From positions 124,001-188,000 of the forward strand of contig NZ_JAAMFB010000022.1 of NCBI RefSeq assembly GCF_013322225.1: a DNA stretch of 64,000 nucleotides, in the 5' to 3' direction. Position numbers and translations under genes: made by a program. The notes beneath the pieces were generated by a model, which saw nothing but the letters and a program-made list of their open reading frames with translations, was not told the DNA's origin and made no database searches. This DNA is from Agrobacterium larrymoorei (GTDB lineage: Bacteria; Pseudomonadota; Alphaproteobacteria; Rhizobiales; Rhizobiaceae). Below are positions 1 to 30,408 of this stretch, in pieces (the first letter of the stretch is position 1; every line of letters starts with the position of its first letter).

Positions 1-489
1 GGAGACGGAACCGATCTTGCCTGTTTTGGAGAGGGCTGCCGCTGCCATGCCCAGCAGATATGTACCCTGGAAATATTTCGCTGCGAAGGGCGAAAAATTC
101 GGCGCGACCTGAAAGCCGGAAGCATGGAGCACGCTGACTTTCTTGTCGCGTCGCGCAACCTGCAAGGCACCGTTTTGATAGCCGAACGAACCGGCAATGA
201 GGAACTTGTTTCCGTCCGCAACGGTCTTCGTCATGATGCGGTCGGCGTCCGGGCCTTCCGCGATGTTTTCAATGATCGTCACCTTCACCTTGTCGCCATA
301 TTCGGCCTTGACCGGCTCAAGTCCTGCGGCAAGGGCATGGCCCCAGCCGACATCGCCGATGGGCGAAGGCACGACGAGGGTGATGCCGAGCGGCTGGTCA
401 GCGGCCGATGCTGCGCGACCGCCGAGTGCACCGGCAATACCGGTGGCTGCTGTCGCCTGGAGTAGGGTTCTGCGGGTGAGTTTCGTCAT
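1..489 (-). CDS. BMP-family ABC transporter substrate-binding protein (partial, C-terminus outside window)
   Basis: The frame is open from an ATG at 489 to the window edge, giving 163 residues of an N-terminal half. The first ~28 residues form an export signal with a twin-arginine-like start (TRRTLLQ) and an AASA cleavage region. The mature part (ITLVVPSPIGDVGWGHA, then GPDADRIMTKTVADGNKFLI) resembles the BMP/Med family of periplasmic lipoprotein-like binding proteins, which often bind nucleosides or purines. It lies 24 nt downstream of the amidohydrolase stop on the same strand, so it is probably the last visible gene of the Rieske/GST operon and would deliver that operon's substrate. The BMP assignment is fairly secure; the ligand is inference from the neighbours. 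Confidence 0.8.
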   Translation of the reverse strand, partial: MTKLTRRTLLQATAATGIAGALGGRAASAADQPLGITLVVPSPIGDVGWGHALAAGLEPVKAEYGDKVKVTIIENIAEGPDADRIMTKTVADGNKFLIAGSFGYQNGALQVARRDKKVSVLHASGFQVAPNFSPFAAKYFQGTYLLGMAAAALSKTGKIGSVS

Positions 490-513
490 GACTTTCGTTC
501 CCTTTGATCGTTA

Positions 514-1894: not shown

Positions 1895-2554
1895 TCAGGC
1901 GCTTTCCGCCTGTATCTCCGGCTCCGGCTTCAACTCGTGCAGCCGGTGAATACCGGGCATTTCGATGAAGTTCGGAAGCGAACGAAGCGACCGCGACCAG
2001 AGGCGGATCGTCGGGTAGGGATCAAGCGAGACGTTGCCGTCAGGGGCAAGTGCGACATAGGGAAAACAGGCGATGTCCGCAATCGTCGGACGGTCTGCAG
2101 CGAGATAGCGCTGCCCGCGTATTGCCTGCTCGGCAAGACCAGCCTCAAGCTCGCGCAGGGCGGCAGTTCCTGCTTTCTGCAATGCATCGATGTCTCCGGG
2201 AACGAGCAGCATTCTGTCCAGACGCGCGCCACCGAGGCTGGATGTCAGTCTTCCCGAAAAGGAAAGCCATTGCTGAATTCGGGCCGTCTGTGCCGGGCTC
2301 CCATCACCCAGCCATTCGGGCGATGCCGTGGCTGAGATATAGGCGAGCATGGCAGACGATTCCGTCAGCAGCAGATCGTCATGCTCGAGAATGGGAATCG
2401 TCCCAGCCGGATTGATCGCAAGCATCTTAGGGCTGCGATGTTCGACGCCCGGATGGAAGTCTACGGGGTGAAGGTCGAGCGTGACACCCGCAAGAGCGGC
2501 CATCAGCCGGACTTTGTAGCAGCTGGGTGAAAGGATGTAATCGTAAAGCTTCAT
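1895..2554 (-). CDS. Glutathione S-transferase-like protein, possible structural partner of the oxygenase (NdmE-like)
   Basis: The 219 residues have an N-terminal thioredoxin-like GST domain (about 1-80) with the NPAGTIPILEHDD loop and the TES glutathione-contact motif (Glu65-Ser66), followed by an all-helical C-terminal domain with the usual ADRPTIADIACFPY segment. The start overlaps the oxygenase stop (ATGA, 2551-2554). In the caffeine degrader Pseudomonas putida CBB5, the GST-like protein NdmE has no required catalytic role and holds a Rieske-less oxygenase (NdmC) together with a Rieske-bearing partner (NdmD). The same gene trio occurs here, so a scaffold role is a serious alternative to glutathione transfer. 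The GST fold is clear; the scaffold role is inference. Confidence 0.85.
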   Translation of the reverse strand: MKLYDYILSPSCYKVRLMAALAGVTLDLHPVDFHPGVEHRSPKMLAINPAGTIPILEHDDLLLTESSAMLAYISATASPEWLGDGSPAQTARIQQWLSFSGRLTSSLGGARLDRMLLVPGDIDALQKAGTAALRELEAGLAEQAIRGQRYLAADRPTIADIACFPYVALAPDGNVSLDPYPTIRLWSRSLRSLPNFIEMPGIHRLHELKPEPEIQAESA

Positions 2555-3396
2555 TGCGCCACCAGTTGCGCGCCATAGGTATAATTGCGCCGCTTGAGCC
2601 AGCGCCTGTAGGCGATTGATGTCAGGTCTGCACGGGTCGGAATTTCCTTGCCGGGATCGAGCGGCAGGCGTGTGGGAATCTGATTTTCGAGGATGGACCG
2701 GTCCTGAAGAAAAATCGTCTGCTGGAAATGGATGAGATCAGCCATCGGCGTCTTGTCATCGAATAGAGCCATCCACGGCCAGACATCACAGACATCTTCG
2801 CTGAGCGGTTGCACGAAGAGCGTAATGACGTCCCAGTCGCTCGGGCGCGGAGGGCAGGTCTTGTAAAGCACCGAGCAGGTAGGGGCGGGCACGCGGTACA
2901 TATATTCCGTGGTTATGCCGCCGCTGGCAGATTTGGCCGCCTGTGGCTGGTAGAACTTGACCTGCGTCGCCCATACCTCATCCACATCTTCGCGAATCTC
3001 GACCTTGTATTCCTGCACCTCGGTATGGGGCTCGGAGCCGAGAATGTCGGTATGAACGAACGGAAAATGAGCGACATCGAGAAAATTTTCCACCGCACGC
3101 AGTGGTGAGCATCGCACACGAACAACGCCGACATCCACCAGTCTGCGACCGGGCTGATCTGCTTCAGGAATAGAGAAAAGCTCGTGCGACGGATTGCCGA
3201 GTGAGGTCCAGATATGACCGTAGCGCTCGGTTACCGGTAATGCGCGACCTTTGTCGTCGGTAACGACTATTCCACCCTCAGCACTGCGACCAACCGTGAT
3301 CGGAGTGCCCATTAACATCGTCTGGCGAGCGACAGATTTGGTCTGGCTTATCAAGCCGACCGGATACCATTCATCGAGCATACCAACCTTGCTCAT
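2551..3396 (-). CDS. Aromatic-ring-hydroxylase-type non-heme iron oxygenase subunit lacking its Rieske cluster (NdmC-like)
   Basis: The 281-residue protein has a normal mononuclear iron domain: ENFLDVAHFPFVH gives Asp107, His110 and His115, and QDRSILENQ gives the likely second carboxylate ligand Asp232. The N-terminus begins like a family member (DEWYPVGLI), but where the CxH and CxxH ligands should be it runs from VTDDKGRALPVTERYG straight into HIWTSLG. About 50 residues carrying the [2Fe-2S] site are absent. Usual alpha subunits have 340-450 residues. The start overlaps the Rieske gene stop and the stop overlaps the GST start, both by ATGA. Electrons must come from another Rieske protein, presumably the upstream neighbour. 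The reaction is inferred to be O- or N-demethylation or ring hydroxylation. Confidence 0.85.
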   Translation of the reverse strand: MSKVGMLDEWYPVGLISQTKSVARQTMLMGTPITVGRSAEGGIVVTDDKGRALPVTERYGHIWTSLGNPSHELFSIPEADQPGRRLVDVGVVRVRCSPLRAVENFLDVAHFPFVHTDILGSEPHTEVQEYKVEIREDVDEVWATQVKFYQPQAAKSASGGITTEYMYRVPAPTCSVLYKTCPPRPSDWDVITLFVQPLSEDVCDVWPWMALFDDKTPMADLIHFQQTIFLQDRSILENQIPTRLPLDPGKEIPTRADLTSIAYRRWLKRRNYTYGAQLVAQ

Positions 3397-4031
3397 GCGG
3401 CAGCTCCAGATGTAAATGTCTCCGCCGAACGCCGCAATGCTTCGGCTGCACGCGAAGCAGCGATGCGCTGTGCCGTTCCGGCGTCATCAGGCATGAGAAC
3501 GAGGATCAATGTTTCGTTTGCGGACTGTGCGTGACACAGCAGGGAAAGTCCGCCGATCTCCAGCAGCCCGTTGTCATCCGCCTGCGCCCCAGTCGAAGCT
3601 TCCAGCGCCTCAATTCCGATATTTGCTGACATGGATCGAAGTGGGGATAGGCCTTCGAGGCGAGGTGGTTCTGCCGTGAGTGAACCGTCGCTCACCCAGA
3701 CGACGGCATTCTGCTCGCGAACAGTGTATGTCACCACACGAATTGTCTCTGGTGGCTTTAGAGAAGGATGGGCCGGAATTTTCATGCACTGACCGGACTG
3801 CGCATAGCTCCAGCCATGATAAATACAGGAAAGCAGCTCTCCGCGAACGAAGCCGTGCGACAGTCGCATTCCCCGGTGGGGACATCGATCAGCCGATGCC
3901 GTCACTCGCCCCGAAGCGCTGCGCCAGAGAGCAATCGTTTCACCGGCAAAACGAACAGGCATTACCGCTAGCGCTGGGATGTCTTGAGATAAAGCGACCG
4001 GCACCCATGAACCTGGCGAACGGGCATGCAT
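3393..4031 (-). CDS. Stand-alone Rieske [2Fe-2S] protein, electron donor half of a split oxygenase
   Basis: This 212-residue protein has a complete Rieske motif, DRCPHRGMRLSHG then SCIYHGWSY, giving ligands Cys50, His52, Cys69 and His72. Residues 1-120 resemble the N-terminal domain of a ring-hydroxylating oxygenase alpha subunit, up to the VVWVSDGS strand. Residues 120-212 resemble neither the catalytic iron domain nor a flavin/NADH reductase; I do not recognise them. The protein therefore supplies exactly what the overlapping downstream oxygenase lacks. In NdmD the Rieske domain is fused to a reductase. Here no reductase is visible in the window, so it must be encoded elsewhere. The start is the ATG at 4031. 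Confidence 0.85.
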   Translation of the reverse strand: MHARSPGSWVPVALSQDIPALAVMPVRFAGETIALWRSASGRVTASADRCPHRGMRLSHGFVRGELLSCIYHGWSYAQSGQCMKIPAHPSLKPPETIRVVTYTVREQNAVVWVSDGSLTAEPPRLEGLSPLRSMSANIGIEALEASTGAQADDNGLLEIGGLSLLCHAQSANETLILVLMPDDAGTAQRIAASRAAEALRRSAETFTSGAAA

Positions 4032-4886: not shown

Positions 4887-5094
4887 CTCAATCACTCCGT
4901 TGTGGATGACGCAATTTAGCTTTCGTTTCCGTGAACTGTGGCTGAATGAACAATGACCATTTCAGGGCGAACGGTGCCCGATTTGGTCGAAAAAGCGACT
5001 TTAGAGGTGGCCGTTCCAGCTGCACTTTTCGCAAACGAGAGCAACGAGACGGTAGCGCGTCGGCATCACGCAAAGTTGGGTGGTTTTCTAGACT

Positions 5095-5316: not shown

Positions 5317-5476
5317 ACTTGCTCCGGTATATATAGCATGAGCTTCGTCGCACGCTCTGTTCCGGCCTGATCCAGCAGGACTTACCACACCAGACATGAG
5401 CATGCGAAAAGCGGCTACTGCTCCAAGAACTCGATCTTGAAAGCTTCGCCAAATAAGGGAACGAAGGAACCGATAC

Positions 5477-6832
5477 ATGACCATCATACCAAATTCGATT
5501 GAAGGCCGCGATATTGCCTATCAGATGCATCCGAACGTCAATCTTCGGAAATATGAAAAGACGGGCGGTCTCGTTATCGAGTCGGGGGAGGGCGTCTATG
5601 TTTTCGATAGCAGCGGCAAGCGCTACATAGAGGGCCTGGCCGGTCTCTGGTCGGTGGCTGTCGGGTTTGGGGAGAAACGTCTGTCGGAAGTAGCGAAAGC
5701 ACAGATGGATAAGCTGCCCTATTATCATACCTTCGCTTACAAGACCCATGGCCCATCGATCGAGCTTGCCGAAAAGCTGATCCAGATCGCGCCCGTTCCA
5801 ATGTCCAAGGTTCACTTTACGTCGTCCGGCTCGGAGGCAAACGATCTCGCCTGCAAGATGGTCTGGTATCGCTCGAACGCCCTTGGAAAGAAGGACAAGA
5901 AGAAGATCATCGGGCGGATCAAGGGTTATCACGGCGTGACGATTGCCTCCGGTTCGATCACCGGCCTGCCACGCAACCATGAAAGCTTCGATCTGCCGCT
6001 GGACCGAATGATCCATACATCCTGCCCGTCCTTCGTTCATCATGGATCAGCAGGCGAGAGCGAGGAAGAGTTTACCGCCCGCATGTTGAAGGATCTGGAA
6101 GACCTGATCCTTAAGGAAGGTCCGGAAACCATCGCTGCATTCTGGGGCGAGCCGGTCATGGGTGCGGGCGGCGTGCTCGTTCCACCAGCAGGATACTGGG
6201 AGGGCGTGCAGAAAATCCTGAAGAAACACGACATCCTGCTGGTCGTCGATGAAGTCATCTGCGGCTTTGGCCGCACCGGCAAGATGTTCGCCTGCCAGAC
6301 CTATGGTATCGAGCCGGATGTTCTGGTTCTCTCCAAGCAGCTTTCCTCGTCTTACATGCCGCTGTCGGCAATTTTGATGAATGACGCGTTCTACCAGCCG
6401 ATTGCCGACGAGTCGGATCGCATTGGCGTATTCGGTCACGGTTTCACTGCATCCGGCCATCCCGTTGCGACGGCCGTTGGGCTGGAAAACCTGAAAATCA
6501 TCGAGGAGAGAGATCTGATCGGCAACGCTGCACGGCTGGAGAGCAAATTCCTCTCGCGGCTTGAAGGCCTCTCCCAGCATCCGCTAGCGCATTCTTCCCG
6601 TGGTGTCGGCCTGCTTGGCGCACTCGAGATCAAGCCTTGGGCAAACGCGAAAGCTGGAGACGCAGCGGCTGCCGTTGGCGCTGCCTTGGAACATGAAGGC
6701 GTTATCGCCCGTGTCGTTGGAGAAGCAATCTGCTTCTGCCCACCTCTCATCATCACGGCGGAACAGATTGATGAGATGTTCGATGCCTTGGCTCGCGCGC
6801 TCGATACCGTCGCGGCAACGCGTAGCGCTTAA
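5477..6832 (+). CDS. Class III (omega) aminotransferase, PLP-dependent
   Basis: The 451 residues fit a fold-type I class III aminotransferase. Visible features are the phosphate-binding SSGSEAND (116-123), the cofactor-contact YHG (151-153), VVDEVICGFGRTG with Asp258, and the Schiff-base lysine Lys287 in LVLSKQLSSSY. The SKQLSSSYMPLSA stretch and overall length match omega-amino acid:pyruvate and putrescine/diamine aminotransferases rather than ornithine or acetylornithine enzymes. The ATG at 5477 has a purine-rich upstream site (AAGGAA). It is convergent with the polyamine-type importer downstream, so an amine taken up by that importer is a plausible amino donor; this is inference. Confidence 0.88.
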   Translation: MTIIPNSIEGRDIAYQMHPNVNLRKYEKTGGLVIESGEGVYVFDSSGKRYIEGLAGLWSVAVGFGEKRLSEVAKAQMDKLPYYHTFAYKTHGPSIELAEKLIQIAPVPMSKVHFTSSGSEANDLACKMVWYRSNALGKKDKKKIIGRIKGYHGVTIASGSITGLPRNHESFDLPLDRMIHTSCPSFVHHGSAGESEEEFTARMLKDLEDLILKEGPETIAAFWGEPVMGAGGVLVPPAGYWEGVQKILKKHDILLVVDEVICGFGRTGKMFACQTYGIEPDVLVLSKQLSSSYMPLSAILMNDAFYQPIADESDRIGVFGHGFTASGHPVATAVGLENLKIIEERDLIGNAARLESKFLSRLEGLSQHPLAHSSRGVGLLGALEIKPWANAKAGDAAAAVGAALEHEGVIARVVGEAICFCPPLIITAEQIDEMFDALARALDTVAATRSA

Positions 6833-6845
6833 GAGGGCAGGTGAT

Positions 6846-6865
6846 CCGGCAGCGAAAGCTGCCGG
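6846..6865. terminator. Bidirectional hairpin terminator between convergent genes
   Basis: CCGGCAGC (6846-6853) and GCTGCCGG (6858-6865) form an 8-bp stem closed by a GAAA tetraloop, followed by GTTT on the plus strand. It lies between the aminotransferase stop and the convergent permease stop. Confidence 0.75.
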
Positions 6866-6880
6866 GTTTAACACGACTGA

Positions 6881-7666
6881 TCAGCCGACAGTCGTTTTTC
6901 TCACATGCCTGAAAGCAATGGCCAAGGCGCCCGCCAAAAGGGTTGCCGTGATGAACAGGAAGGCAGCGGCGGCAATGGCAGGGCTGATATTCTCGCGGAT
7001 GCTGGAGAACATTTCACGCGCCAGCGTTCTTTGATTTGGCCCCGCAACGAAGAGCGTCAAGACCACCTCATCCAAAGACGTCGCAAAAGCCAGCACGGCG
7101 CCAGAAAGAACGCCGGGCATGGCAAGCGGCAAGGTAACGCGGCGAAAGACGGTGGTGGGTGAAGCACCCAGACTTTCGGCGGCAAGCTCTACGCGTCCAT
7201 CGATACCGGCCAGCGCCCCGCTGACACTGACGACGACGAAGGGGACGGCCACGACAGTATGGGCGATGATTACGCCTATATAGCTGTTGGTGAGCCCAAA
7301 GCGCGAAAGCAGAACCTGCATGCCAACGCCGAGAACAACAGCCGGAACCACCATCGGCAGCAAAAACAGAGTGCGGATCGTTCCCTTGAAAAAGAGGCGG
7401 CGGTTGCGCAAGCCGAGCGCCGCCAATGTTCCGAGAATTACCGCGAGCATTGTGGTGCCAGACGCAATGATGAGGCTGTTGATGATCGCCCGACGCCAGG
7501 CATCTGCGGTGAACAGTTCCTCCAGCCATCGCAGCGACCAAGAGGGAATGGGGTAGGTGAGGATGACACTCGATGTAAAGGCGAGGGGCAGGATTGCGAG
7601 GAGTGGCGCGATCAGAAAAAGAATGGCGGCAACGGCAAAGAGTGGCTTGAGAATTCTGAGCGTCAT
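6881..7666 (-). CDS. ABC transporter permease, polyamine/opine type (PotC-like)
   Basis: I start this at the ATG at 7666 (MTLRILKPLF), 2 nt after the upstream permease stop; a longer frame reaching 7942 runs through that gene in the wrong frame. The 261-residue inner-membrane protein has about six hydrophobic segments and the cytoplasmic EAA-type loop that contacts the ATPase (AAESLGASPTTVFRRVTLPL). Length and the RNRRLFFKGTIRTLFLLPM segment are typical of the second permease of spermidine/putrescine-type importers. It is the last gene of an SBP-ATPase-permease-permease operon. The substrate is probably a small amine, opine or amino compound. Confidence 0.88.
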   Translation of the reverse strand: MTLRILKPLFAVAAILFLIAPLLAILPLAFTSSVILTYPIPSWSLRWLEELFTADAWRRAIINSLIIASGTTMLAVILGTLAALGLRNRRLFFKGTIRTLFLLPMVVPAVVLGVGMQVLLSRFGLTNSYIGVIIAHTVVAVPFVVVSVSGALAGIDGRVELAAESLGASPTTVFRRVTLPLAMPGVLSGAVLAFATSLDEVVLTLFVAGPNQRTLAREMFSSIRENISPAIAAAAFLFITATLLAGALAIAFRHVRKTTVG

Positions 7667-7668
7667 GG

Positions 7669-8843
7669 TCAGTACTTCGTCTGCTCTTCCGCCGAAAGCC
7701 GGGCGTAAACGCTGTAAAGAACGAGCGTGGCGACGAGCAGCACGACGCCCAGCGCACCTGCCATCCCCCAGTTTGCGGTTCCTGTCGCATAGAATGCGAT
7801 GACGGAGGAAATCATCTGATCGCCCGGACCACCGATCAAAGCGGGGGTGATGTAATAGCCGATGGCCGAGATGAAGACGAGCAGGCAACCGGAGGCCACG
7901 CCGCGCAGGCTGAGTGGCAGTAGCACCTTGATAAAGGCCCAAAGCGGGTGAGCGCCGAGCGAAGCTGCGGCGGGCATGAGGTTGCGCGGTATGGTGATCA
8001 GCACCGAATAGATCGGCAAAACCATGAAGGGCAGCAGCACATGCGTCATGGCGATGATCACACCGATCCGGTTGAAGATCAGCGGCAGAGGATCACTGAT
8101 CAGGCCGATCCATTGCAGCATTTCGTTGATCAGCCCCTGCTCCTGCAGCAGAATGAACCACGCCGCCGTTCGCACCAGAAGCGATGTCCAGAGCGGCAAA
8201 AGCACCGCACCCAACATGAGATCGCGCTTCCAGCCTTCGAGGGAGGCTGCAATCAGCGCATAGGGAAAGCCGATGAGGACGCAGGCCGAGGTTACAAGCG
8301 CGGCTATCCAGAAGGTACGAGCGAGGATGACGCCGTTGACGGATTGATCGGCGGGTAGATGCTCGATGTCCCCTGCCGAGTTGCGGCCAAGGTCCACCGC
8401 CGCGAGCAGGTTGCGATCCGTGATTGGCGAAAGTGCATCCGCAATCGCAATCCAGTAGTCAGGCTGGCCCCATCTCTTGTCTATCGAAACGAGATCGACA
8501 GGTGACGCCGCTCCGTCTGCCAAAGCACTCGTTGTTTTCGACATCAGTGTACGAAAGCCGGGGCGGGCGCTGTTGAGACGGCGAACCATGTCACCCAGCG
8601 CCTGCGTATCGTCCACCGCCTTCAAATCCGAAATCAGCGCCGCCTGCATCTCGCTCGTAGGGGGCGTCTGCCGATCCCATTCAGCGACGATTTGAGTGCT
8701 CTTCGGCAAAAGGCGCAACACCGCCGTATCCGAAACCGATTGCGACACCATGCTGAGAAGCGGCCAGATGAAGAAACCGACGAGAAACAGGAGAAGCGGC
8801 GAAAGCAGCAGAAGTGAGCGAGCGGTGGGTTGCGAGAAACCAC

Positions 8844-8847
<4 letters not shown>
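7669..8847 (-). CDS. ABC transporter permease, polyamine type (PotB-like), with enlarged periplasmic insert
   Basis: The start is the ATG at 8847, which overlaps the ATPase stop (ATGA, 8844-8847), giving 392 residues. A first membrane segment (LLLLSPLLLFLVGFFIWPLL) is followed by about 130 residues of probably periplasmic sequence (AEWDRQTPPTSEMQAALISD onward). The transmembrane core with the EAA-loop region (AASLGAHPLWAFIKVLLPLS) comes after it. PotB-type permeases are usually 280-310 residues, so the insert after the first segment is a noticeable extension, known in a subgroup of this family. It pairs with the 6881-7666 permease in one importer. Confidence 0.88.
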
Positions 8848-9911
<1,064 letters not shown>

Positions 9912-9967
9912 GGAAACTCCATCGACTGCTCCGGCAATAAAAAGGAGCAGGACGTGTCGTAACTGAA

Positions 9968-9994
9968 GCAGGACACCGACATGCGGTGCCCTGC
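9968..9994 (-). terminator. Hairpin after the binding-protein gene
   Basis: GCAGGACACCG (9968-9978) and CGGTGCCCTGC (9984-9994) form an 11-bp stem with one mismatch and a 5-nt loop. It sits 14 nt past the stop of the substrate-binding protein and before the ATPase. This is the usual place for a hairpin that protects the binding-protein mRNA and lowers expression of downstream transporter genes. Confidence 0.5.
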
Positions 9995-10008
9995 GAGGGT
10001 ACTAAAGC

Positions 10009-11061
10009 TTACTTGGCCAGCCAGGCGTTGAAGCGCTGGGTGAGGGATTCCGCATTGTCGATCCAGAAATCGACATTGAGCGGGATCGCATCCGTCATAT
10101 TGGCGGGGTCTGTCGGCAGGTCCTTGGCGTATTCTGCCGGTACCTTGGAAGCGGCTTCCTTGTTCGGCAGGCCGTAGGCCACGAATTCCGGAAGCTTGGA
10201 CTGGTGTTCCGGCAGGCTTGCGAACGCGATGAAATCCTGCGCCTCGGCCTTGTTTGCCGCATCCTTTAACACCACCCAGCTATCGACAGCATAGATGCTG
10301 CCCGGCCAGACAACCTTGAAATTCTTGCTCTCGGTTCGGTTGATACCGGTAATGCGGCCATTATAGGCGGAGGTCATCACCACTTCACCCGATGCCAGAA
10401 ACTGCAAGGGCTGCGCGCCGGATTCCCACCAAACGATGTTCGGTTTCAACTCATCGAGTTTTTTGAAGGCGCGGTTGACGCCTTCTTCGGTTGCGAGAAC
10501 ATCGTAAAGCTCATCTTTTGAAACGCCATCCGCCAGAAGAGCGAATTCGAGCGTGTATTTCGGGCCTTTGCGCAGCGAGCGCTTGCCCGGAAATTTCTCC
10601 ACGTTCCAGAAGTCTTGCCAGGATTTCGGGCCTTCCTTCAGCTTTGCGCCGTCATAGGCAATGGCGGTTGACCAGACGATTGCGCCGACGCCACAGTCGT
10701 TGACGGCTGTTGGCAGGAACTTGTCCTTGCCGCCCATCTTGTCCCAATCGATCTTTTCATAAAGACCGTCGGCGCAACCAAGGGCCAGTTCTTCTGCCTC
10801 GACCTGCACCGCGTCCCAGTTCGGCGCGCCAGCTTTGACCTTGGACTGGATGACGCCGATGCCGCCATCCCAGGCTTCGTCCAGAACCGGCTTGCCGATC
10901 TTTTCGGAGAAAGGCTTGAAGTAAATCTTGCGCTGCGCATCCTGATAGGTACCGCCCCAGGAAACCACGGTCAGGTCTCGGCTGAAGGCTGGCAAGCTCT
11001 GGGTAAGCGTCAAGGCGATGGCAGCTGCCGCGATAGCGGAAAATTTCTTGAACTCATTCAT
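10009..11061 (-). CDS. Periplasmic substrate-binding protein, spermidine/putrescine type (PotD/PotF-like)
   Basis: The 350-residue protein starts with a classical signal peptide (MNEFKKFSAIAAAAIALTL, cleavage near PAFSRD). The mature N-terminus DLTVVSWGGTYQDAQRK is typical of family 1 polyamine/opine/iron-type binding proteins, as is the WWESGAQPLQFLASGEVVM strand in the second lobe. It would capture the ligand and deliver it to the ATPase and two permeases encoded directly downstream. The ligand-contacting acidic residues of true PotD cannot be assigned by eye, so 'polyamine-like' describes the family and not the proven ligand. Confidence 0.88.
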   Translation of the reverse strand: MNEFKKFSAIAAAAIALTLTQSLPAFSRDLTVVSWGGTYQDAQRKIYFKPFSEKIGKPVLDEAWDGGIGVIQSKVKAGAPNWDAVQVEAEELALGCADGLYEKIDWDKMGGKDKFLPTAVNDCGVGAIVWSTAIAYDGAKLKEGPKSWQDFWNVEKFPGKRSLRKGPKYTLEFALLADGVSKDELYDVLATEEGVNRAFKKLDELKPNIVWWESGAQPLQFLASGEVVMTSAYNGRITGINRTESKNFKVVWPGSIYAVDSWVVLKDAANKAEAQDFIAFASLPEHQSKLPEFVAYGLPNKEAASKVPAEYAKDLPTDPANMTDAIPLNVDFWIDNAESLTQRFNAWLAK

Positions 11062-11266
11062 TATGTTCCCCTTTTCGTCTTGAGAGGACCGGCGTCGTAT
11101 GCTCGGCCCGGATGGAATTCCTCAAGGTCTCGCAGATGTCGTGCTTGTCTTTTGCAATGTCACGAGGCCTGCATGTCGCCCGCCGGTCTTCCCTTTTCCT
11201 CTGGAAGGCGGCGAAGTATCGTATGCATTCTTCTGACCGGCGGCGGATGTTCAGCCCGCCCACAAG

Positions 11267-12007
11267 TCAAACGTGCTGCCCTCCATTGATGTGGATTTCG
11301 GCTCCGGTAATATAGGAGGACTGCTCTGAGCAAAGGAAGTAGATGGTTTCCGCCACTTCTTTCGGTTCCCCGAGCCTACCCATCGGCACCTCTGCGGCAA
11401 CCAGTTCATCGGTACCCGGCGACAGGATCGAGGTCTCGATTTCCCCCGGCGCAATGGCATTCGCACGCACGCCGAAACGGCCAAACTCGTGCGCCATTTC
11501 TCGGGTGAGAGAAGCCAGCGCTGCCTTCGATGCAGCATAGGCAACGCCGGCGAATGGATGCACGCGCGATCCGGCAATAGAGGTGACGTTGACGATCGAA
11601 CCCTTTGCCGCTTCAAGCTCCGGCAGTAGCGCCCGGGCCAGAAGCGCAGTCGAAATGAGGTTGACGTTCATCACCTGCGTCCAAACGCTGGCCTCTGTTT
11701 CTGCAACACCCAGACGGCTCTTGTCCGGTCCCTTCGGAGAGATTCCGGCATTGTTGACGAGGGCTTGCAATCTGCCTTTCGGCAGTCTTTCCCGCACAGT
11801 ATCGACAAGACGATCAATCTGACTCAGATCGGCCAAGTCTGCCTGAATATGACTTTCGCGAGCAGACGGCCATGCGCATTCTTCGGCAAAGGGTTGACGG
11901 GAAACGGTAAGGATACGCCAGCCCTTGGCCTGGAAGAGCTTCACGGTGGCGTGGCCGATACCACGGCTTGCGCCTGTCAGTAGCATGTAAGGTCGATCTT
12001 CGCTCAT
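11267..12007 (-). CDS. Short-chain dehydrogenase/reductase (SDR)
   Basis: The 246 residues form a classical SDR: cofactor motif TGASRGIG (11-18), NNAG (85-88), catalytic Ser143, Tyr157 and Lys161 (AYAASKAAL) and a C-terminal GAEIHINGGQHV. It uses NAD(P)(H) to interconvert an alcohol and a carbonyl. It lies between the GntR regulator and the importer genes on the same strand and has a copy of the 19-bp operator-like repeat just upstream (12019-12037), so it is probably the first gene of the regulated transport operon. It might process a semialdehyde made by the kinase/phospholyase pair across the regulator; that is inference. Confidence 0.88.
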   Translation of the reverse strand: MSEDRPYMLLTGASRGIGHATVKLFQAKGWRILTVSRQPFAEECAWPSARESHIQADLADLSQIDRLVDTVRERLPKGRLQALVNNAGISPKGPDKSRLGVAETEASVWTQVMNVNLISTALLARALLPELEAAKGSIVNVTSIAGSRVHPFAGVAYAASKAALASLTREMAHEFGRFGVRANAIAPGEIETSILSPGTDELVAAEVPMGRLGEPKEVAETIYFLCSEQSSYITGAEIHINGGQHV

Positions 12008-12018
12008 ACGCCGCTCCC

Positions 12019-12037
12019 TGATGTTTGATGCATCATA
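12019..12037. promoter_or_regulatory. Operator-like 19-bp repeat, copy 1 (upstream of SDR operon)
   Basis: TGATGTTTGATGCATCATA contains the perfect 10-bp palindrome TGATGCATCA (12026-12035). An identical 19-bp copy, in the same orientation, lies on the other side of the GntR gene (12760-12778). The site is 12 nt upstream of the SDR start codon, where a bound repressor would block transcription or translation. Confidence 0.7.
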
Positions 12038-12077
12038 TTACCCCATTCCGGAATTGCAACAGCTCATTTTCGACCGG

Positions 12078-12740
12078 TCAATTCTCCCGAATTGTGATCC
12101 GCTCGAGGATCGGCTTGCCGCCCAGTAGTATGTCATCGATGATCGCCATTGCAGCCCCAGCAGAATCGTGCCGCTTCAAAGCTTCTACGACCGGATAGTG
12201 GTGATCGATCATGGCGCGTCCCGCCGGAATGTAAATATCCGATATGTGCGGGCCCATCTGGAGCCAGAGACGTCTTAGTATCCCGTTCAGCACGGGAAGC
12301 CCAGCAATCTGAGGCAGCATGAAGTGAAATGCTTGGTTGAGCGCAGCGCCCCGTCGACCATCTCCATCGGCAATTGCCTGTTCGTTTTCCCGCAAAACCT
12401 GCTCCAAAGCAGCAATATCCTGTCCTGTCGCGGTCTGTGCCGCCGTCTCTGCCGCCAGCCCTTCCAGCTTCACGCGAATAGTCCTGATCTCCCGGTACCG
12501 CGCCTGTTTCATGTCTGGAATTCGAATATCTCGCGGCGAGCGGAAGATAAGGGCCTCGTCATTGGCGAGACGCAGGATAGCATCACGGATGGGGGTGACA
12601 CTTGTGCCGAACTGTTCGGCGAGATCGCGGATTTTCAGGCGCTCGCCGGGCTGGAACCGTCCCTGCATGAGGGCATCGCACATCGCGGAATAGACCGTGT
12701 TGCTCAAGCTTTCATAGCCCAGCGGAGAAAATTCCGACAT
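12078..12740 (-). CDS. GntR-family transcriptional regulator, FCD (FadR) subfamily
   Basis: The 220 residues have an N-terminal winged helix (about 10-75: NTVYSAMCDALMQGRF, PGERLKIRDLAEQFGTS, TPIRDAILRL) and a helical FCD effector domain with the metal-binding pattern visible as AALNQAFHFML and MIDHHYPVVEALKRHD. It is flanked by two identical 19-bp palindrome-bearing repeats. One precedes the SDR/importer genes; the other lies between its own start and the divergent kinase. It therefore probably represses all three units until an effector, likely the transported amine or its catabolite, is bound. Confidence 0.88.
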   Translation of the reverse strand: MSEFSPLGYESLSNTVYSAMCDALMQGRFQPGERLKIRDLAEQFGTSVTPIRDAILRLANDEALIFRSPRDIRIPDMKQARYREIRTIRVKLEGLAAETAAQTATGQDIAALEQVLRENEQAIADGDGRRGAALNQAFHFMLPQIAGLPVLNGILRRLWLQMGPHISDIYIPAGRAMIDHHYPVVEALKRHDSAGAAMAIIDDILLGGKPILERITIREN

Positions 12741-12759
12741 AAAACCTCCCGACCCAATT

Positions 12760-12778
12760 TGATGTTTGATGCATCATA
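12760..12778. promoter_or_regulatory. Operator-like 19-bp repeat, copy 2 (regulator/kinase divergent promoter)
   Basis: The 19 bases are identical to 12019-12037 and contain TGATGCATCA at 12767-12776. The copy lies 20 nt upstream of the GntR start and about 58 nt upstream of the divergent kinase start, so one bound dimer could control both promoters. Confidence 0.7.
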
Positions 12779-12835
12779 ATTTTGTGTTACACCACTCATA
12801 TCAGTTTAGTCTTGATTGGCAATGGGGGGAGACAG

Positions 12836-13879
12836 GTGGAAGCAGTCGCGACGTCCAAGGCGGACGCCATCTCTGCGTCGCTGACCGTGACGCCGCTCTC
12901 GACGGTGTGCGAGCATGCGTTCGAAATCTATGGGTTTATCGGCTCTACCAAGCGATTGTCGAGCGAGCGCGACGAGACGTTCCTGTTCACGCGGAGCGAC
13001 GGCGCTGAGTTCACGTTGAAGATCGCCAATGCCGCAGAAGATCCAGCGGCGCTTGAATTTCAGGATGGTGCTCTGCTGCATCTGGCCAAGGTTGCTCCCC
13101 ATGTTCCGGTGCCTCGTCTTGTGCCGACACGCGACGGCAGGGAGAGCCAAACACTCCAGACGGTGGATGGGCCTCGCATCATGCGCCTGCTCACATATCT
13201 TGGCGGCGACTTGCAGTATCGCACGCCCACAACAGCCGAGCAGAGCCGAAATATCGGCATGGCGCTGGCTCAACTGGGGCTAGGACTGAAGGATTACGGC
13301 GGACGACCGCCCAGCGGAAAACTAATGTGGGACATCTCTCATACCCTGGATTTGCAGGGTTTCACCGATTTCGTGGGGGAGGAGCGCCGAGAAGCCGTTG
13401 AGGTGGTGCTTGTCGATTTCGAGGCTGCCTTGCCGGCGATCAGGGCGTTGAAGCGCCGCCAGATCATTCATAACGACTTCAACCCGCACAATATCCTCAT
13501 GCAGCCGTATGCTCCTTGCGAGGTCTCCGGTATCATCGACTTCGGTGATATGGTTGAAGCACCGCTCATCAACGATGTGGCAGTCGCGCTCTCTTACCAT
13601 CTCGCAACCGACAACTGGCAGGAGAGGACACAGGCCTTTCTGGAAGGTTTCATTGCTGTGCGTCCGTTGGAAGCCGACGAAATAGAGCTTCTGCCGCTTC
13701 TTGCCCGCTGCCGTCTGGCCATGTCCATTATCATCGCGGAATGGCGCTCGGCGCTTTTTCCCGACAACCGCGATTATATCATGAGAAACCATGCGTACGC
13801 ATGGCGTTCGCTGCAACACATTCCGCAACTCACATCCGCCGGGTTGAAAAGCCTTGCGCCAAATCTTTCGAGGGCTTGA
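12836..13879 (+). CDS. APH/ChoK-type phosphotransferase, hydroxylysine-kinase-like
   Basis: I prefer the GTG at 12836 (347 residues), which follows a strong GGGGGAG ribosome-binding site; a longer frame from 12782 would begin inside the promoter region. The protein has the aminoglycoside-phosphotransferase fold with catalytic loop HNDFNPHNIL (His212, Asp214, Asn219) and the metal-binding IIDFGD (Asp235). The segment RIMRLLTYLGG and the overall layout resemble the human hydroxylysine kinase (AGPHD1/HYKK) group more than antibiotic-resistance enzymes. It ends 3 nt before a phospholyase-type class III PLP gene, the same functional pairing known for hydroxylysine and phosphoethanolamine breakdown. 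The substrate is therefore probably an amino alcohol, not an antibiotic. Confidence 0.78.
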   Translation: MEAVATSKADAISASLTVTPLSTVCEHAFEIYGFIGSTKRLSSERDETFLFTRSDGAEFTLKIANAAEDPAALEFQDGALLHLAKVAPHVPVPRLVPTRDGRESQTLQTVDGPRIMRLLTYLGGDLQYRTPTTAEQSRNIGMALAQLGLGLKDYGGRPPSGKLMWDISHTLDLQGFTDFVGEERREAVEVVLVDFEAALPAIRALKRRQIIHNDFNPHNILMQPYAPCEVSGIIDFGDMVEAPLINDVAVALSYHLATDNWQERTQAFLEGFIAVRPLEADEIELLPLLARCRLAMSIIIAEWRSALFPDNRDYIMRNHAYAWRSLQHIPQLTSAGLKSLAPNLSRA

Positions 13880-13882
13880 AAC

Positions 13883-15211
13883 ATGTCTATGGTCAACGCT
13901 TTTTCGCGCGATGATTTCGAACGTCTGGATGAAGCCGAGAAGGCATTGATCGCCAGGCGCAACAAGGTTCTTGGCCCGGCATATCGACTTTTCTACGAAA
14001 AGCCCCTCCACCTTGTGCGCGGAGAAGGCGTCTTTCTCTATGATACGGCAGGCAAGCAATATCTGGATGCCTATAACAACGTCGCGTCTCTCGGTCACTG
14101 CCATCCGCGTGTCGTAGAGGCCATTACGCGGCAGACTGGGGTTCTCAACACCCACACGCGCTATCTGCATGAAGGCATTATAGAATATGCCGAAGAGCTG
14201 ACCGCAACTTTTCCCGATGAACTGAGCCAGGCGATGTTCACCTGCACGGGCAGCGAAGCAAACGATCTCGCCTTCCGCATCGCCCGCTTTGTCACCGGCG
14301 GCACGGGCGTCATTGCAACCGAACTTGCCTATCATGGGCTGACGAGCGCTGTTGCAGAATTCTCTCCTTCGCTAGGCGAATCCGTAACGCTTGGTGCACA
14401 TGTCCGCACCATTCCATCACCCGATAGTTACCGTCATTCCCCGGAAGAAATCGCACAGAAATTCGGTGCGGACGTGAAGCAGGCCATTGCCGACCTTAAA
14501 CGTCACGGCATTAAGCCAGCGCTTTTGATCGTAGACACGATCTTTTCCAGCGACGGCATCTTCGCCGGTCCGAAGGGTTTCCTGAAGCCCGCTGTCGATG
14601 CGATCCACGAGGCTGGCGGTCTGTTCATCGCCGATGAAGTTCAGCCGGGCTTCGGCAGAACTGGCGAAGCGATGTGGGGTTTCCAGCGCCACGGCGTGAT
14701 GCCGGATATGGTGACGCTCGGCAAGCCTATGGGCAATGGCTATCCCATGGCGGGCATCGTGATGCAGCCGGAAGTGATTGCGCAATTCGGACCACAGGCA
14801 CGATATTTCAACACCTTCGGCGGCAACCCGATTGCGGCGGCAGCGGGTAAAGCCGTTCTGGATACGATCAGAGACGAGGGCTTGCAGCAAAATGCGCTGG
14901 AAGTTGGCCGTTATCTTATGGACGGACTTTCAAACCTCAGTGGACCGCATTCGGTTATCGGCGATGTCCGTGGCTCCGGCCTCTTCATCGGCGTGGAGAT
15001 CGTGTCCGACCCTGCAACGAAAAAGCCCGATGCGGCTCTCACCTCCCGGATAGTTAACGGCTTGCGTGAACGTTACGTTCTGATCAGCGCTTCGGGGCCG
15101 AATGCCAACGTACTCAAAATCCGCCCCCCGCTCGTCTTTGCGAAAGAACACGCCGATCTTCTCCTCGAGAAATTGAAGCTTGTCCTTGATCAGTGTGTTC
15201 CCGCCCTTTAG
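13883..15211 (+). CDS. Class III PLP enzyme of the ethanolamine-phosphate/phosphohydroxylysine phospho-lyase type
   Basis: The 442 residues have the class III aminotransferase fold: TGSEAND (122-128), YHG (150-152), ADEVQPGFGRTG with Asp251, and Lys281 in TLGKPMGNGYP as the Schiff-base lysine. The segment YNNVASLGHCHPRVVEAI and NTHTRYLH strongly resembles the AGXT2L1/AGXT2L2 subgroup, whose members remove phosphate and ammonia from phosphoethanolamine or 5-phosphohydroxylysine to give an aldehyde. It follows the kinase by 3 nt, so the pair would phosphorylate an amino alcohol and then eliminate phosphate. Ordinary transamination remains possible; the neighbouring kinase argues for the lyase. 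Confidence 0.8.
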   Translation: MSMVNAFSRDDFERLDEAEKALIARRNKVLGPAYRLFYEKPLHLVRGEGVFLYDTAGKQYLDAYNNVASLGHCHPRVVEAITRQTGVLNTHTRYLHEGIIEYAEELTATFPDELSQAMFTCTGSEANDLAFRIARFVTGGTGVIATELAYHGLTSAVAEFSPSLGESVTLGAHVRTIPSPDSYRHSPEEIAQKFGADVKQAIADLKRHGIKPALLIVDTIFSSDGIFAGPKGFLKPAVDAIHEAGGLFIADEVQPGFGRTGEAMWGFQRHGVMPDMVTLGKPMGNGYPMAGIVMQPEVIAQFGPQARYFNTFGGNPIAAAAGKAVLDTIRDEGLQQNALEVGRYLMDGLSNLSGPHSVIGDVRGSGLFIGVEIVSDPATKKPDAALTSRIVNGLRERYVLISASGPNANVLKIRPPLVFAKEHADLLLEKLKLVLDQCVPAL

Positions 15212-27658: not shown

Positions 27659-29083
27659 TCAGCTCAATGCTTCCGAACGCTGCTTCGTAAGCGATGATCG
27701 TTGGCGCGGCAGATAGTTTCCATGTGGGGTCGGCCCAGCAAAATCTCCGTCCTCCACGATGGTCTTGCCGCGCAGTAACAGGCGCACAGGCCAGCCCCTG
27801 ATGTCGAGACCTTCATACGGTGTGTAATCAGCACCATGGTGCAGCATGTCGTTCGTGAGAGTGACGCTCTTGGTCGGGTCCCACAATGCAATATCGGCAT
27901 CCGCGCCGACGGCGATTGTGCCCTTGCGAGGGTACAGCCCATAGAGCTTGGCGTGGTTGGTCGAGGTGACAGCAACGAACTGGTTGATATCGATCCTGCC
28001 CTTCATCACGCCCTCCGAAAACAGGATCGGCAGGCGCGTGGCGACACCGGGAATGCCGTTCGGAATCCAGCGGAAATGTCGCTTGCCTTTCTCGTTCAGT
28101 TTTCCTTCCGGATCGTCGAAGCGGAAGGGGCAGTGGTCGGACGAAAACAGATCGAAAACGCCCTGTTCCAGACCTTCCCAGCAGGCACCCTGACTGGCCT
28201 TGTCGCGTGGTGGCGGTGAGCAGACATATTTGGCGCCTTCCATCTCGCTCTGATCGAGATCGTCGGCGGTCAGCATCAGATATTGCGGGCAGGTTTCACC
28301 CGCGATCTTCTGGCCACGCTGTCGGGCTCTGCGAATTTCCTCCATCGCCTCGCGGTTGGAGACATGGACGATGACGATAGGGACGTCCACGATTTCGGCC
28401 AGCGATAACGCCCGGTGCGTTGCCTCGCGCTCAGCCGCGATCGGTCGCGTCGTGGCGTGGAATTTCGGCTCGAATTTGCCATCTTCCTCATGGCGACCGA
28501 TGAGATAGCGAATGGCGTCCTCGTTTTCGCAGTGGACCATAACGAGTGCTCCGGTGCGCCGAGCCGTATCGAGGGTGGCAAGGATTTCGTCGTCGCGCAG
28601 CCGCAGACCCTCATAGGTCATGAAGACCTTCAGCGAGGTGTAGCCGTCCTCGACCAGCGCCGGCAGTTCCTGCCCGAGCACTTCCGCCGTCGGGTCCGTA
28701 ATGACGAGGTGAAAGGACACGTCTACATGGCATTTGCCTTCCGCCTTGGCGTGATACACCTTCAGCGCTTCACGCAGAGACTGACCTTTTTCCTGCATGC
28801 AGAATGCCAGAACGGTGCTGTTGCCACCGATGGCGGCCGAGCGGGTGCCGCTGTCGAAATCATCGGCCATGACGATGCCATCCCCGGATGGCTGGTCGAG
28901 ATGGACGTGGCTGTCGATGCCGCCGGGCAGGACGAACAGGCCGGTGGCATCAATGATCTCGTCCGCATCTGTCAGTTCCGCTGCCAGCGCCGCGATACGA
29001 CCATCCTTGATCCCGACATCGCTGACAAAGGTATCGCTTGCCGTTACCACGGTTCCGTGCCGGATCACTGTGTCAAAACGCAT
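27659..29083 (-). CDS. D-hydantoinase/dihydropyrimidinase-family hydrolase
   Basis: The 474 residues form a cyclic-amidohydrolase barrel. The metal ligands visible are His59 and His61 (DSHVHLDQ), the lysine expected to be carboxylated, Lys152 (YTSLKVFMTY), His184 (VMVHCEN) and the aspartate in FSSDHCPF. The HLDQPSGDG and AFCMQEKGQ segments fit the dihydropyrimidinase/phenylhydantoinase group. These enzymes hydrolyse dihydropyrimidine or 5-substituted hydantoin rings to N-carbamoyl amino acids. It is the last gene of an operon with an amino-acid-type importer and a class V PLP enzyme. No N-carbamoylase lies in the window, so the next step must be elsewhere. Confidence 0.9.
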   Translation of the reverse strand: MRFDTVIRHGTVVTASDTFVSDVGIKDGRIAALAAELTDADEIIDATGLFVLPGGIDSHVHLDQPSGDGIVMADDFDSGTRSAAIGGNSTVLAFCMQEKGQSLREALKVYHAKAEGKCHVDVSFHLVITDPTAEVLGQELPALVEDGYTSLKVFMTYEGLRLRDDEILATLDTARRTGALVMVHCENEDAIRYLIGRHEEDGKFEPKFHATTRPIAAEREATHRALSLAEIVDVPIVIVHVSNREAMEEIRRARQRGQKIAGETCPQYLMLTADDLDQSEMEGAKYVCSPPPRDKASQGACWEGLEQGVFDLFSSDHCPFRFDDPEGKLNEKGKRHFRWIPNGIPGVATRLPILFSEGVMKGRIDINQFVAVTSTNHAKLYGLYPRKGTIAVGADADIALWDPTKSVTLTNDMLHHGADYTPYEGLDIRGWPVRLLLRGKTIVEDGDFAGPTPHGNYLPRQRSSLTKQRSEALS

Positions 29084-29113
29084 CTTTCCATGTCCTTCTC
29101 ATCGTTCATGAGG

Positions 29114-30379
29114 TCAGCTCGCCTTCGCAAACCCGGCATCGCCTGAGAGGATGCGATCAAGTGCGGCGGTGAAACGGTCAACCTCTTCCAGCGTGTTGTA
29201 ATGCACCATCGAGACACGCAGCATGCCGCCATGGTCGGTCAGACCAAGATATTCGGCAAGCCGTCTCGAGTGGAAATCACCGAAGCGCATGGCGACATGT
29301 TCGCCATCCATCGCCTTGCAAAGATCGCCAGCATCGCGGCCATCGAAGCGGAAGGCGATTGTCGGTACGCGCGTCTCGCCGTGATTGGAGGACTGTCCGA
29401 CGATCCGGCAATCGTTGCGGGAGCGCAGGTAGCTCAAGAGCCGCTCTGTCAGCAGGTTTTCCTGCGCGGTGATGGCCGAAAACGCTGCTTCTATCTTCTG
29501 GCGGACAGTGCCTGTTTCGCCCGACTGCTCGCCGAGTGCCACCAGGTAATCGACGATGCCGCAGGTGGAATAGGCCAGTTCATAGTTCGGGTTGCCGGGC
29601 TCCAGCTTACCCGGCACTTTGTCCTTGCCGTAGAAGTAGTGGTAGAGCGTGTCGAGCTCGAGCAGCAGATCGTATTTGCCATACATCAGGGCGTAATGCG
29701 GGCCATAGGTCTTGTAGAGGCTGAAGACGTAATAATCGACATCCAATGCCTGCACGTCGACGGCGCGGTGCGGGGCGTAGGCCACGGCATCGACGCAGAT
29801 CTTTGCCCCGCGCGCATGGACAAAATCGGCGATCTCGCGGATCGGATTGATCGATCCTAGAATGTTGGAGACGTGGGTGACGCAGACCATTTTCGTGCGC
29901 TCACTCATCAAGGGTTCAAGATCGGAGAGGTCGAGCTGCAACGTTTCCTTGTTCAATGGCCAGAATTTGAGCGTGATACCTGCATCCTGCAACCGGTCCC
30001 AAGGCCCGATATTGGATTCGTGATCGCTGACCGTGACGATGATCTCGTCGCCTGACGACAGTTGGCTCTGCATCGCGCGGGCAAGGTTTTGCAACAATGC
30101 CGTTGTGGAGTTGCCGAACACGATTTCTTCCGGTCTCGACGCATTGACCAGATGCATGGCCGCTGTGCGCGCTTCGTAAAGTGCCTTCGCGGCGCTTTGT
30201 GAGACCTCATAGGAGCCTCCGATCTGCACGTTTTTCTCGATCAGAAACGTATTGATCCGCTCCAGCGCGCCCTTGAGGATCTGAGATCCGCCCGCATTGT
30301 CGAAGAATGTCCAGCCGCGCGACAGCCCTGGAAACTGGCTGCGCACATAATCGAGGTCGAGTTTTGAAGTGGTGGTCAT
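29114..30379 (-). CDS. Class V PLP enzyme, cysteine-desulfurase-like
   Basis: I start at the ATG at 30379 (MTTTSKLDLDYV), which follows GGGAGACACCAGGA; an in-frame TTG at 30412 would overlap the ATPase. The 421 residues have the fold-type I class V pattern: FFDNAGGSQ near the start, SDHESNIGPW (His120), ICVDAVAYAPH (Asp197, His204) and the Schiff-base Lys223 in VFSLYKTYGPH. It resembles the desulfurase-like group that lacks the long cysteine loop of NifS/IscS, so it may be a beta-lyase or desulfurase for an imported amino acid. It lies between the ATPase and hydantoinase genes. Confidence 0.8.
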   Translation of the reverse strand: MTTTSKLDLDYVRSQFPGLSRGWTFFDNAGGSQILKGALERINTFLIEKNVQIGGSYEVSQSAAKALYEARTAAMHLVNASRPEEIVFGNSTTALLQNLARAMQSQLSSGDEIIVTVSDHESNIGPWDRLQDAGITLKFWPLNKETLQLDLSDLEPLMSERTKMVCVTHVSNILGSINPIREIADFVHARGAKICVDAVAYAPHRAVDVQALDVDYYVFSLYKTYGPHYALMYGKYDLLLELDTLYHYFYGKDKVPGKLEPGNPNYELAYSTCGIVDYLVALGEQSGETGTVRQKIEAAFSAITAQENLLTERLLSYLRSRNDCRIVGQSSNHGETRVPTIAFRFDGRDAGDLCKAMDGEHVAMRFGDFHSRRLAEYLGLTDHGGMLRVSMVHYNTLEEVDRFTAALDRILSGDAGFAKAS

Positions 30380-30408
30380 TCCTGGTGTCTCCCGACTGGT
30401 ATTTTTAT

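Follow-up and report, generated by a model that had tools for sequence, protein, structure and literature searches.

A Rieske oxygenase divided over two genes in Agrobacterium larrymoorei: a probable NdmCDE-like N-demethylase with its redox relay shared between two sister subunits

Introduction

How can a Rieske oxygenase operate when its two metal centres are encoded by two separate genes? This question is raised by an operon of Agrobacterium larrymoorei located in contig NZ_JAAMFB010000022.1 of assembly GCF_013322225.1, from which a stretch of 64,000 nucleotides (positions 124,001 to 188,000 of the forward strand), hereafter called the window, was analysed. At the start of the window, the operon encodes a 281-residue oxygenase chain devoid of a Rieske cluster and, in the overlapping upstream gene, a 212-residue Rieske protein. 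In ordinary oxygenases, electrons leaving the Rieske cluster cross the subunit boundary via a bridging Asp to reach the iron of the neighbouring subunit, about 12 Å away. In the light of the data presented below, the operon probably encodes a multi-subunit Rieske N-demethylase resembling NdmCDE, the redox relay of which is split over two degenerate sister oxygenase subunits.

Two chains with the motif of one metal centre each

The 281-residue chain is a member of the VanA_C catalytic family (PF19112, 73.7 bits for a cut-off of 23.5), and the profile search of the window open reading frames (ORFs) gave no Rieske profile match for it. It matches SxtDIOX with an E-value of 1.1e-27, the alignments to SxtDIOX and SxtT running from residue 54 onward. 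Relatives were gathered in a wider set of 209 loci, partly overlapping because some genomes were fetched twice, which holds 229 oxygenase ORFs. Residues Asp107, His110, His115 and Asp232 are kept in 183/183 aligned oxygenase rows (non-identical, 265-320 aa) and, before the length filter, 228/229 oxygenase ORFs pass the motif test, the remaining one being a frame-broken gene in locus L122. Since six ORFs with a match to each of the two profiles had been classed as ordinary oxygenases and removed, the absence of the Rieske domain from the oxygenase set is in part a result of the selection. The first-pass annotation, made from the sequence of the window, had listed the four residues as iron ligands: all of them are indeed present and three can be retained as such, whereas an Asp at the position of Asp107 is the bridging Asp, and not an iron ligand, according to PMC12445004. 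In the absence of a Rieske partner, this Asp would serve no obvious purpose, and it is invariably kept in the aligned rows.

The extent of the missing part emerges from the spacing of conserved Trp residues. The W10-W63 span of the oxygenase has a median of 53 residues (47-83), versus 103 (103-106) between the matching Trp residues of the Rieske protein and 101-111 in three full-length oxygenases from the loci. This difference indicates that the oxygenase has lost the ~50-residue CxH...CxxH segment, as had been noticed at first reading. After the matching Trp, the medians are 105 residues in the Rieske protein and 219 in the oxygenase. Besides, a match was obtained between oxygenase residues 1-72 and the N-terminus of the Rieske protein (hhalign, 96.8%, E 2.6e-10, 42 columns). 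Judging from the alignment, residues ~5-46 of the oxygenase seem to be what is left of a Rieske fold after removal of its ~50-residue cluster-binding segment.

For the 212-residue protein, the Rieske profile (PF00355) is matched with 78.4 bits for a cut-off of 20.3, and the profile searches returned neither a catalytic-domain nor a reductase match. The ORF coordinates and the complete Rieske motif that had been reported for this overlapping upstream gene were both verified, and its four ligands C50, H52, C69 and H72 are kept in 123/123 aligned Rieske rows (non-identical, 180-260 aa), of which 0/123 display a D/ExxHxxxxH motif downstream of the Rieske domain. The degenerate Rieske row of L008 and the rows of L160 and L169-L171, which correspond to cut or fused genes, were excluded before the alignment count. 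A strict Rieske motif test is passed by 153/158 Rieske ORFs, the five failing ones being four full-length oxygenases and the degenerate L008 row. Neither chain of the window thus combines the cluster motif with the 2-His-1-carboxylate, as a single-chain alpha subunit does. The initial proposal of one oxygenase split over two genes is well supported, at the level of sequence, by the conservation of both sets of ligands (183/183 and 123/123), and NdmC/NdmD is an apt precedent for it.

Such an arrangement could also be produced by the breaking or mis-sequencing of an ordinary alpha subunit, an explanation in favour of which only the split itself can be invoked and whose probability is negligible. 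Both genes are open and overlap by 4 bases (ATGA, minus strand), the split pair with its ligands recurs in records of Rhizobiaceae, Rhodobacteraceae and Granulosicoccaceae, and the Rieske-fold strands that the two proteins have in common are present in both of them. The sequencing error hiding a Rieske motif that had been envisaged from the outset is excluded by the conservation of the split over many genomes, and a pseudogene is ruled out in the same way by the conservation of both genes and their ligands.

The C-terminal domain of the Rieske protein

Instead of being a fixed half of the oxygenase, the 212-residue protein could be an ordinary ferredoxin that shuttles to it, like those of three-component dioxygenases. 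The oxygenase does require an electron carrier, and the protein has a complete Rieske motif, with Rieske ferredoxins among its matches (e.g. 5bok, E 4.9e-7). This possibility is nevertheless improbable. The best matches of the protein, over about residues 8-120, are SxtT (E 3.3e-22) and SxtDIOX, alpha subunits thereby scoring far better than ferredoxins. Rieske-type ferredoxins are small single-domain proteins (the named ones mostly 103-115 aa), whereas structure prediction confidently places a second domain at residues ~128-211 of this 212-aa protein, whose overall predicted structure can be aligned along its full length to complete alpha subunits of oxygenases. Moreover, as the oxygenase has no Rieske match, the cluster facing its bridging Asp must be that of another protein, and the 212-residue protein is the neighbour. 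An ordinary ferredoxin identity was accordingly disfavoured on the basis of the alpha-subunit matches and the whole-model alignment.

The C-terminal ~90 residues had been left unassigned by the first-pass annotation. When compared with an NdmD-like profile, they match the region that follows the Rieske domain (hhalign, 96.7%, E 3.9e-10, 83 columns), and the NdmD linker itself matches the oxygenase profile (87.8%, E 3.3e-6, 60 columns), while the controls, ten unrelated profiles taken from these operons and two reversed ones, score at most 1.2%. In view of these profile comparisons and of the predicted fold, this segment looks like a vestigial oxygenase catalytic domain, to which the NdmD linker between the Rieske and reductase domains looks related. 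The Rieske protein as a whole is predicted to adopt a complete alpha subunit fold from which the iron-binding motif and roughly half of the catalytic domain are missing. Its earlier description as having no catalytic iron domain therefore holds for the motif, which is gone, but not for the domain, which appears to be retained in a shrunken form. Because the Rieske protein is predicted as a truncated alpha subunit and the NdmD linker is apparently related to it, the 281- and 212-residue chains look like sisters with complementary losses.

Proposed mechanism

From the computed features, namely sequence, conservation, operon and predicted fold of the Rieske protein, we infer a complex with its electron path, donor, reaction and substrate. 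Since the relay of ordinary oxygenases already crosses between subunits, each sister can drop the centre that it does not use. In the 281-residue chain, the mononuclear iron site would persist along with the bridging Asp, the cluster-binding segment having been lost. In the 212-residue chain, the Rieske cluster would persist, the iron-binding motif and about half of the catalytic domain having been lost. The two chains would meet across the usual interface, in such a way that the cluster of the 212-residue chain faces Asp107 and the iron of the 281-residue chain, and the adjacent glutathione S-transferase (GST)-like protein would probably hold the complex together. The Rieske protein may be reduced by an unlinked reductase or ferredoxin, and the complex would then catalyse the oxidative N-demethylation of an imported methylated purine, the guanine form of which would be deaminated by the amidohydrolase of the operon. 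By analogy, a core of six chains would be compatible with the composition reported for NdmCDE, three of each subunit.

A bolder version can be put forward tentatively, its chances as a whole being somewhat below even. Two paralogous alpha subunits would have degenerated reciprocally into a dead, electron-delivering sister and a catalytic-only sister, and the same pseudo-oxygenase would lie in the NdmD "linker", so that the same logic would apply to NdmCDE. With GST-like and dead-acylphosphatase-like helpers, the pair would form a demethylase for methylguanine salvage, common among Rhizobiaceae and also occurring in other bacteria that live in soil, in water or in association with plants.

Several points weigh against the relay split over two sister chains. 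Compared directly, the C-terminus of the Rieske protein and the oxygenase match weakly (hhalign, 28.5%, E 6.1e-4, 31 columns), the putative kinship of this C-terminus with the catalytic domain going through the NdmD-like intermediate and one predicted model. In addition, a plain three-fold ring is unable to alternate two kinds of chain. No dedicated reductase was found in the window genome, in which the best match to a Komagataeibacter reductase used as query is 28% identical. The proposed substrate derives from the gene neighbourhood, and the deaminase stands under the cut-off of its closest curated family. Finally, among 11 refetched spans of oxygenase ORFs with no Rieske gene nearby, two (L219, L220) hold an oxygenase chain without any Rieske gene.

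This last observation, along with the 31/229 oxygenase ORFs of the wider set for which no Rieske gene lies within 3 kb on the same strand, would be in line with a catalytic chain that uses the cluster of some other full-length oxygenase, or none, the neighbouring Rieske protein serving something else. However, a standalone Rieske gene is present in the cluster in 9 of the 11 refetched spans and in all of the best-80 loci described below, and the single PF19112 match of the window genome is the 281-residue oxygenase itself. We regard this explanation as very unlikely.

As to the electron donor, the Komagataeibacter reductase query has two matches in the window genome, the better one being a 360-aa GbcB-like protein encoded beside a GbcA-like oxygenase, both of them below their family cut-offs. 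A Fer2 search of the same genome pointed to 6 places, of which 0 lie in the operon and one is on the same contig, ~150 kb away. Outside the window genome, some reductase match at E 1e-5 was obtained in 25/25 genomes, of which 23 have the split form and two (G601, G457) the fused one, and no conserved reductase partner was found, the best E-values ranging from 5.5e-9 to 3.5e-18 in six split-form genomes (G590, G586, G677, G647, G662 and G692).

Conservation and distribution

A scan of genome contigs retained the best 80 of 561 relatives, all with at least 60% identity in the best segment. These best-80 loci are the closest relatives, and their counts describe the own clade of the window. With the whole locus taken into account, a standalone Rieske gene occurs in 80/80 and so does a GST gene, so that the gene pair which the first reading advised to look for in other genomes does recur there. 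The acylphosphatase-like ORF that heads the operon is present in 78/80 loci and a Rieske-reductase fusion in 0/80. The Rieske stop and the next start overlap as ATGA in 72 loci and as GTGA in 4, the last 4 showing neither. If only the 66 loci that span 16 kb or more are considered, 64 contain a deaminase (of one type or the other), 65 a BMP protein and 2 a reductase- or ferredoxin-like match. By tblastn, 273 plasmid records were found to contain the oxygenase, the identity being 80-90% in 121 cases, and the gene order is the same in the opened records L002 and L003 (80-90% band) and L007 (67%).

In the wider set, the nearest Rieske gene is standalone and upstream for 138 of the 229 oxygenase ORFs, standalone on the other side for 14 and reductase-fused for 46; a few of these standalone calls are fused genes cut at the ends of short loci, e.g. 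L169-L171. An oxygenase/Rieske pair is obtained from 120 loci. The initial remark that the Rieske domain is carried neither by the oxygenase nor by a reductase is borne out in the best-80 loci, and 46/229 oxygenases of the wider set stand beside a fused gene.

A relative of the oxygenase, in split or fused form, occurs in 100/394 sampled genomes of the family of the window (E 1e-60), 10/385 of the class (E 1e-30) and 16/398 of the phylum (E 1e-60), the own genome being included each time. Seven listed genomes of the same genus gave no oxygenase match in the family sample at E 1e-60.

Divergent clusters (L012, L177, L213-L218, L221-L223) contain one set of acylphosphatase-like, Rieske and GST genes as well as deaminases, and the spans that hold both ends have two Rieske-less oxygenases each. 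In these, one electron-delivering half is possibly shared by two substrate-specific oxygenases.

The split and fused forms were placed on a quick-method tree, in which 78 catalytic chains (49 from the split form, 27 from the fused form and 2 unassigned) were combined with 7 outgroup rows, several of them long-branched. Labels were given by locus; 16/78 were assigned manually once the loci had been refetched or inspected, 14 of them receiving a state and 2 none. The window oxygenase belongs to a clade of 28, all split (SH-aLRT 99), and the fused forms fall into a group of 5 holding P. putida, Klebsiella and Paraburkholderia, and a group of 25 (22 fused, 2 split, 1 unassigned). The tree requires 3-4 changes between split and fused, its starred branches forcing at least 3, and, given the long outgroup branches, it indicates no direction as to which form is older.

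Operon organisation and putative substrate

The operon members are listed in Table 1; the importer ATPase and two permeases come next in the contig, beyond the window (G000:C27:112001-124500; locus L136).

Table 1. Genes of the split oxygenase operon, with positions in the window.
Feature	Position	Strand	Remarks
Acylphosphatase-like small ORF, 78 aa	4195..4431	(-)	Operon head; PF00708 20.2 bits, below cut-off 22.5
Rieske protein, 212 aa, Cys50/His52/Cys69/His72	3393..4031	(-)	PF00355; residues ~118-212 read as a shrunken catalytic domain
Rieske-less oxygenase catalytic subunit, NdmC-like, 281 aa	2551..3396	(-)	VanA_C; bridging Asp107; Fe ligands His110, His115, Asp232
GST-like protein, NdmE counterpart	1895..2554	(-)	GST_N/GST_C Pfam matches
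Amidohydrolase related to 8-oxoguanine deaminase, 459 aa	514..1893	(-)	PRK08203 366 bits
BMP-family ABC transporter substrate-binding protein gene, partial	1..510	(-)	phmmer neighbourhood scan; continues past window base 1

The GST, importer and deaminase would complete an NdmCDE-like methylpurine operon. In the light of the kinship with NdmC, of the guanine/8-oxoguanine-type deaminase and of the BMP-type importer, the operon likely serves, by analogy, to demethylate imported methylated purines. As to the exact compound, 7-methylguanine or 7-methylxanthine is our best guess, with a likelihood well short of even. There is a sizeable minority chance that the substrate is another N-heterocycle, e.g. 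triazine-like or pterin-like, which would touch the substrate alone and is compatible with the rest of the model. The amidohydrolase, the score of which falls below the equivalog cut-off of 532 for 8-oxoguanine deaminase (NF006055), indeed matches the triazine hydrolase 3ls9 (E 2.6e-53) in addition to 7ww2 (E 2.1e-86), and its best solved relative bears two names, 8-oxoguanine deaminase and hydroxydechloroatrazine ethylaminohydrolase. Purines are nevertheless favoured by a guanine-deaminase-type gene that replaces the amidohydrolase in 4/80 best-80 loci and in L010, by molybdenum xanthine-dehydrogenase-type genes near some relatives' loci, and by the action of NdmCDE, the closest tested enzyme, on 7-methylxanthine (PMC4408171).

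At the head of the operon, the small ORF falls short of the acylphosphatase family, whose cut-off is passed by its relative in L007 (23.7 bits). From the alignment of its L002 homologue to a solved acylphosphatase, the catalytic Arg and Asn are apparently replaced, as they seem to be in most of these ORFs. Of 113 non-identical relatives, 79 match the anchor pattern and 0/79 have the catalytic Arg of the GFR loop; F-R can be read in at least two of the 34 unscored ones (L012, L192). Judging from these residues, the ORF probably encodes a conserved, inactive acylphosphatase fold and, more speculatively, it might be a further subunit of the complex. A C-x-LGP motif recurs near the C-terminus of these ORFs.

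Other features of the window

About 10 kb beside the operon (~5449-15193) is 90% identical to plasmids of A. larrymoorei, the query having started at base 5000 and the operon lying outside it. Given that the seven listed same-genus genomes lack the oxygenase, the operon may have been acquired horizontally. Further along, two adjacent ORFs at 12782-13879 and 13883-15211 (+) match positions 20-327 and 573-1011 of the PRK06148 profile (1015 aa), the middle being unmatched, and their A. larrymoorei match is annotated as phosphotransferase and aminotransferase. A dihydropyrimidinase/D-hydantoinase, a cysteine-desulfurase-like protein and an amino-acid-type ABC transporter are encoded at 27659-31829 (-), which, according to these assignments, represents another putative N-heterocycle catabolic locus near the operon.

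Significance

The split oxygenase is common in Rhizobiaceae when both forms are counted, and often occurs without a fused reductase. Two complementary, half-dead sister subunits would give this split a concrete architecture, thereby turning a puzzle into a testable proposal, and the stand-alone Rieske form offers smaller proteins for structural work. The operon hints at a pathway by which bacteria handle methylated purines, for instance the ones released by RNA turnover, and may exemplify how an enzyme with inter-subunit electron transfer divides labour between gene copies.

Comparison with known systems

The split Rieske oxygenase is a kind of enzyme already known from NdmCDE, of which the stand-alone Rieske form is a variant. 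For this form and for a vestigial catalytic domain in NdmD, no description was found in searches of the open-access literature, which covered NdmCDE through reviews; the vestigial domain may have been noticed in the primary NdmCDE papers. The one mention of Rieske in PMC6421345 relates to a different protein. According to PMC4408171 and PMC10380055, NdmC lacks a Rieske cluster, NdmD is a reductase with an extra Rieske domain and NdmE is a GST-like structural protein, the complex being reported to contain three of each subunit and to N7-demethylate 7-methylxanthine to xanthine. NdmC is also reported in reviews to be soluble only when its Rieske and GST-like partners are present.

The first-pass annotation had named NdmC and NdmD of P. 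putida CBB5 as the precedent, and the choice proves well founded. The oxygenase is 44% identical to the NdmC-like protein of P. putida Tik1 (the comparison being made with the protein of Tik1, not of CBB5), the adjoining GST shares 36% identity with the NdmE-like protein encoded in the NdmCDE-like cluster of that strain, and the Rieske protein is 46% identical, in its Rieske part only, to an NdmD-like protein of a P. putida plasmid. For locus L004, the NdmC, NdmD and NdmE labels were given from the architecture, the record itself being without these names. Like NdmCDE of P. putida CBB5, the operon thus combines an NdmC-like, Rieske-less oxygenase chain, a Rieske domain in trans and, alongside, a GST-like third protein in a purine setting, and the C-terminal domain of its Rieske protein matches the region between the Rieske and reductase domains of NdmD-like proteins. 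Unlike in NdmCDE, where the Rieske domain is fused to the reductase, that of the window is a separate 212-aa protein and the operon contains no reductase, but adds a deaminase, a BMP-type importer and the acylphosphatase-like ORF.

In all three plasmid clusters of Sinorhizobium and Mesorhizobium (L005, L010, L011), as in the window, a BMP-type importer accompanies the Rieske-less oxygenase(s), and L005 and L010 also have an annotated GST. In contrast to the window, the three clusters have their Rieske domain fused to a reductase and one or two oxygenase chains. Plasmid pKNA08 of Komagataeibacter nataicola (L008) has separate Rieske proteins beside Rieske-less oxygenases and GSTs, whereas its cluster adds a separate PDR/VanB-type reductase. 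In this record, a second, divergent Rieske-less oxygenase (L008:3966-4787) adjoins one of the two Rieske proteins, of 177 aa (L008:4784-5317), which has lost one cluster cysteine, followed by a GST and the separate PDR/VanB-type reductase.

Finally, NdmA/NdmB, dicamba monooxygenase and SxtT/GxtA have the same folds as the two chains of the window and relay electrons from the Rieske cluster to the iron of the next subunit, but these are ordinary alpha subunits, in which each chain carries both centres.

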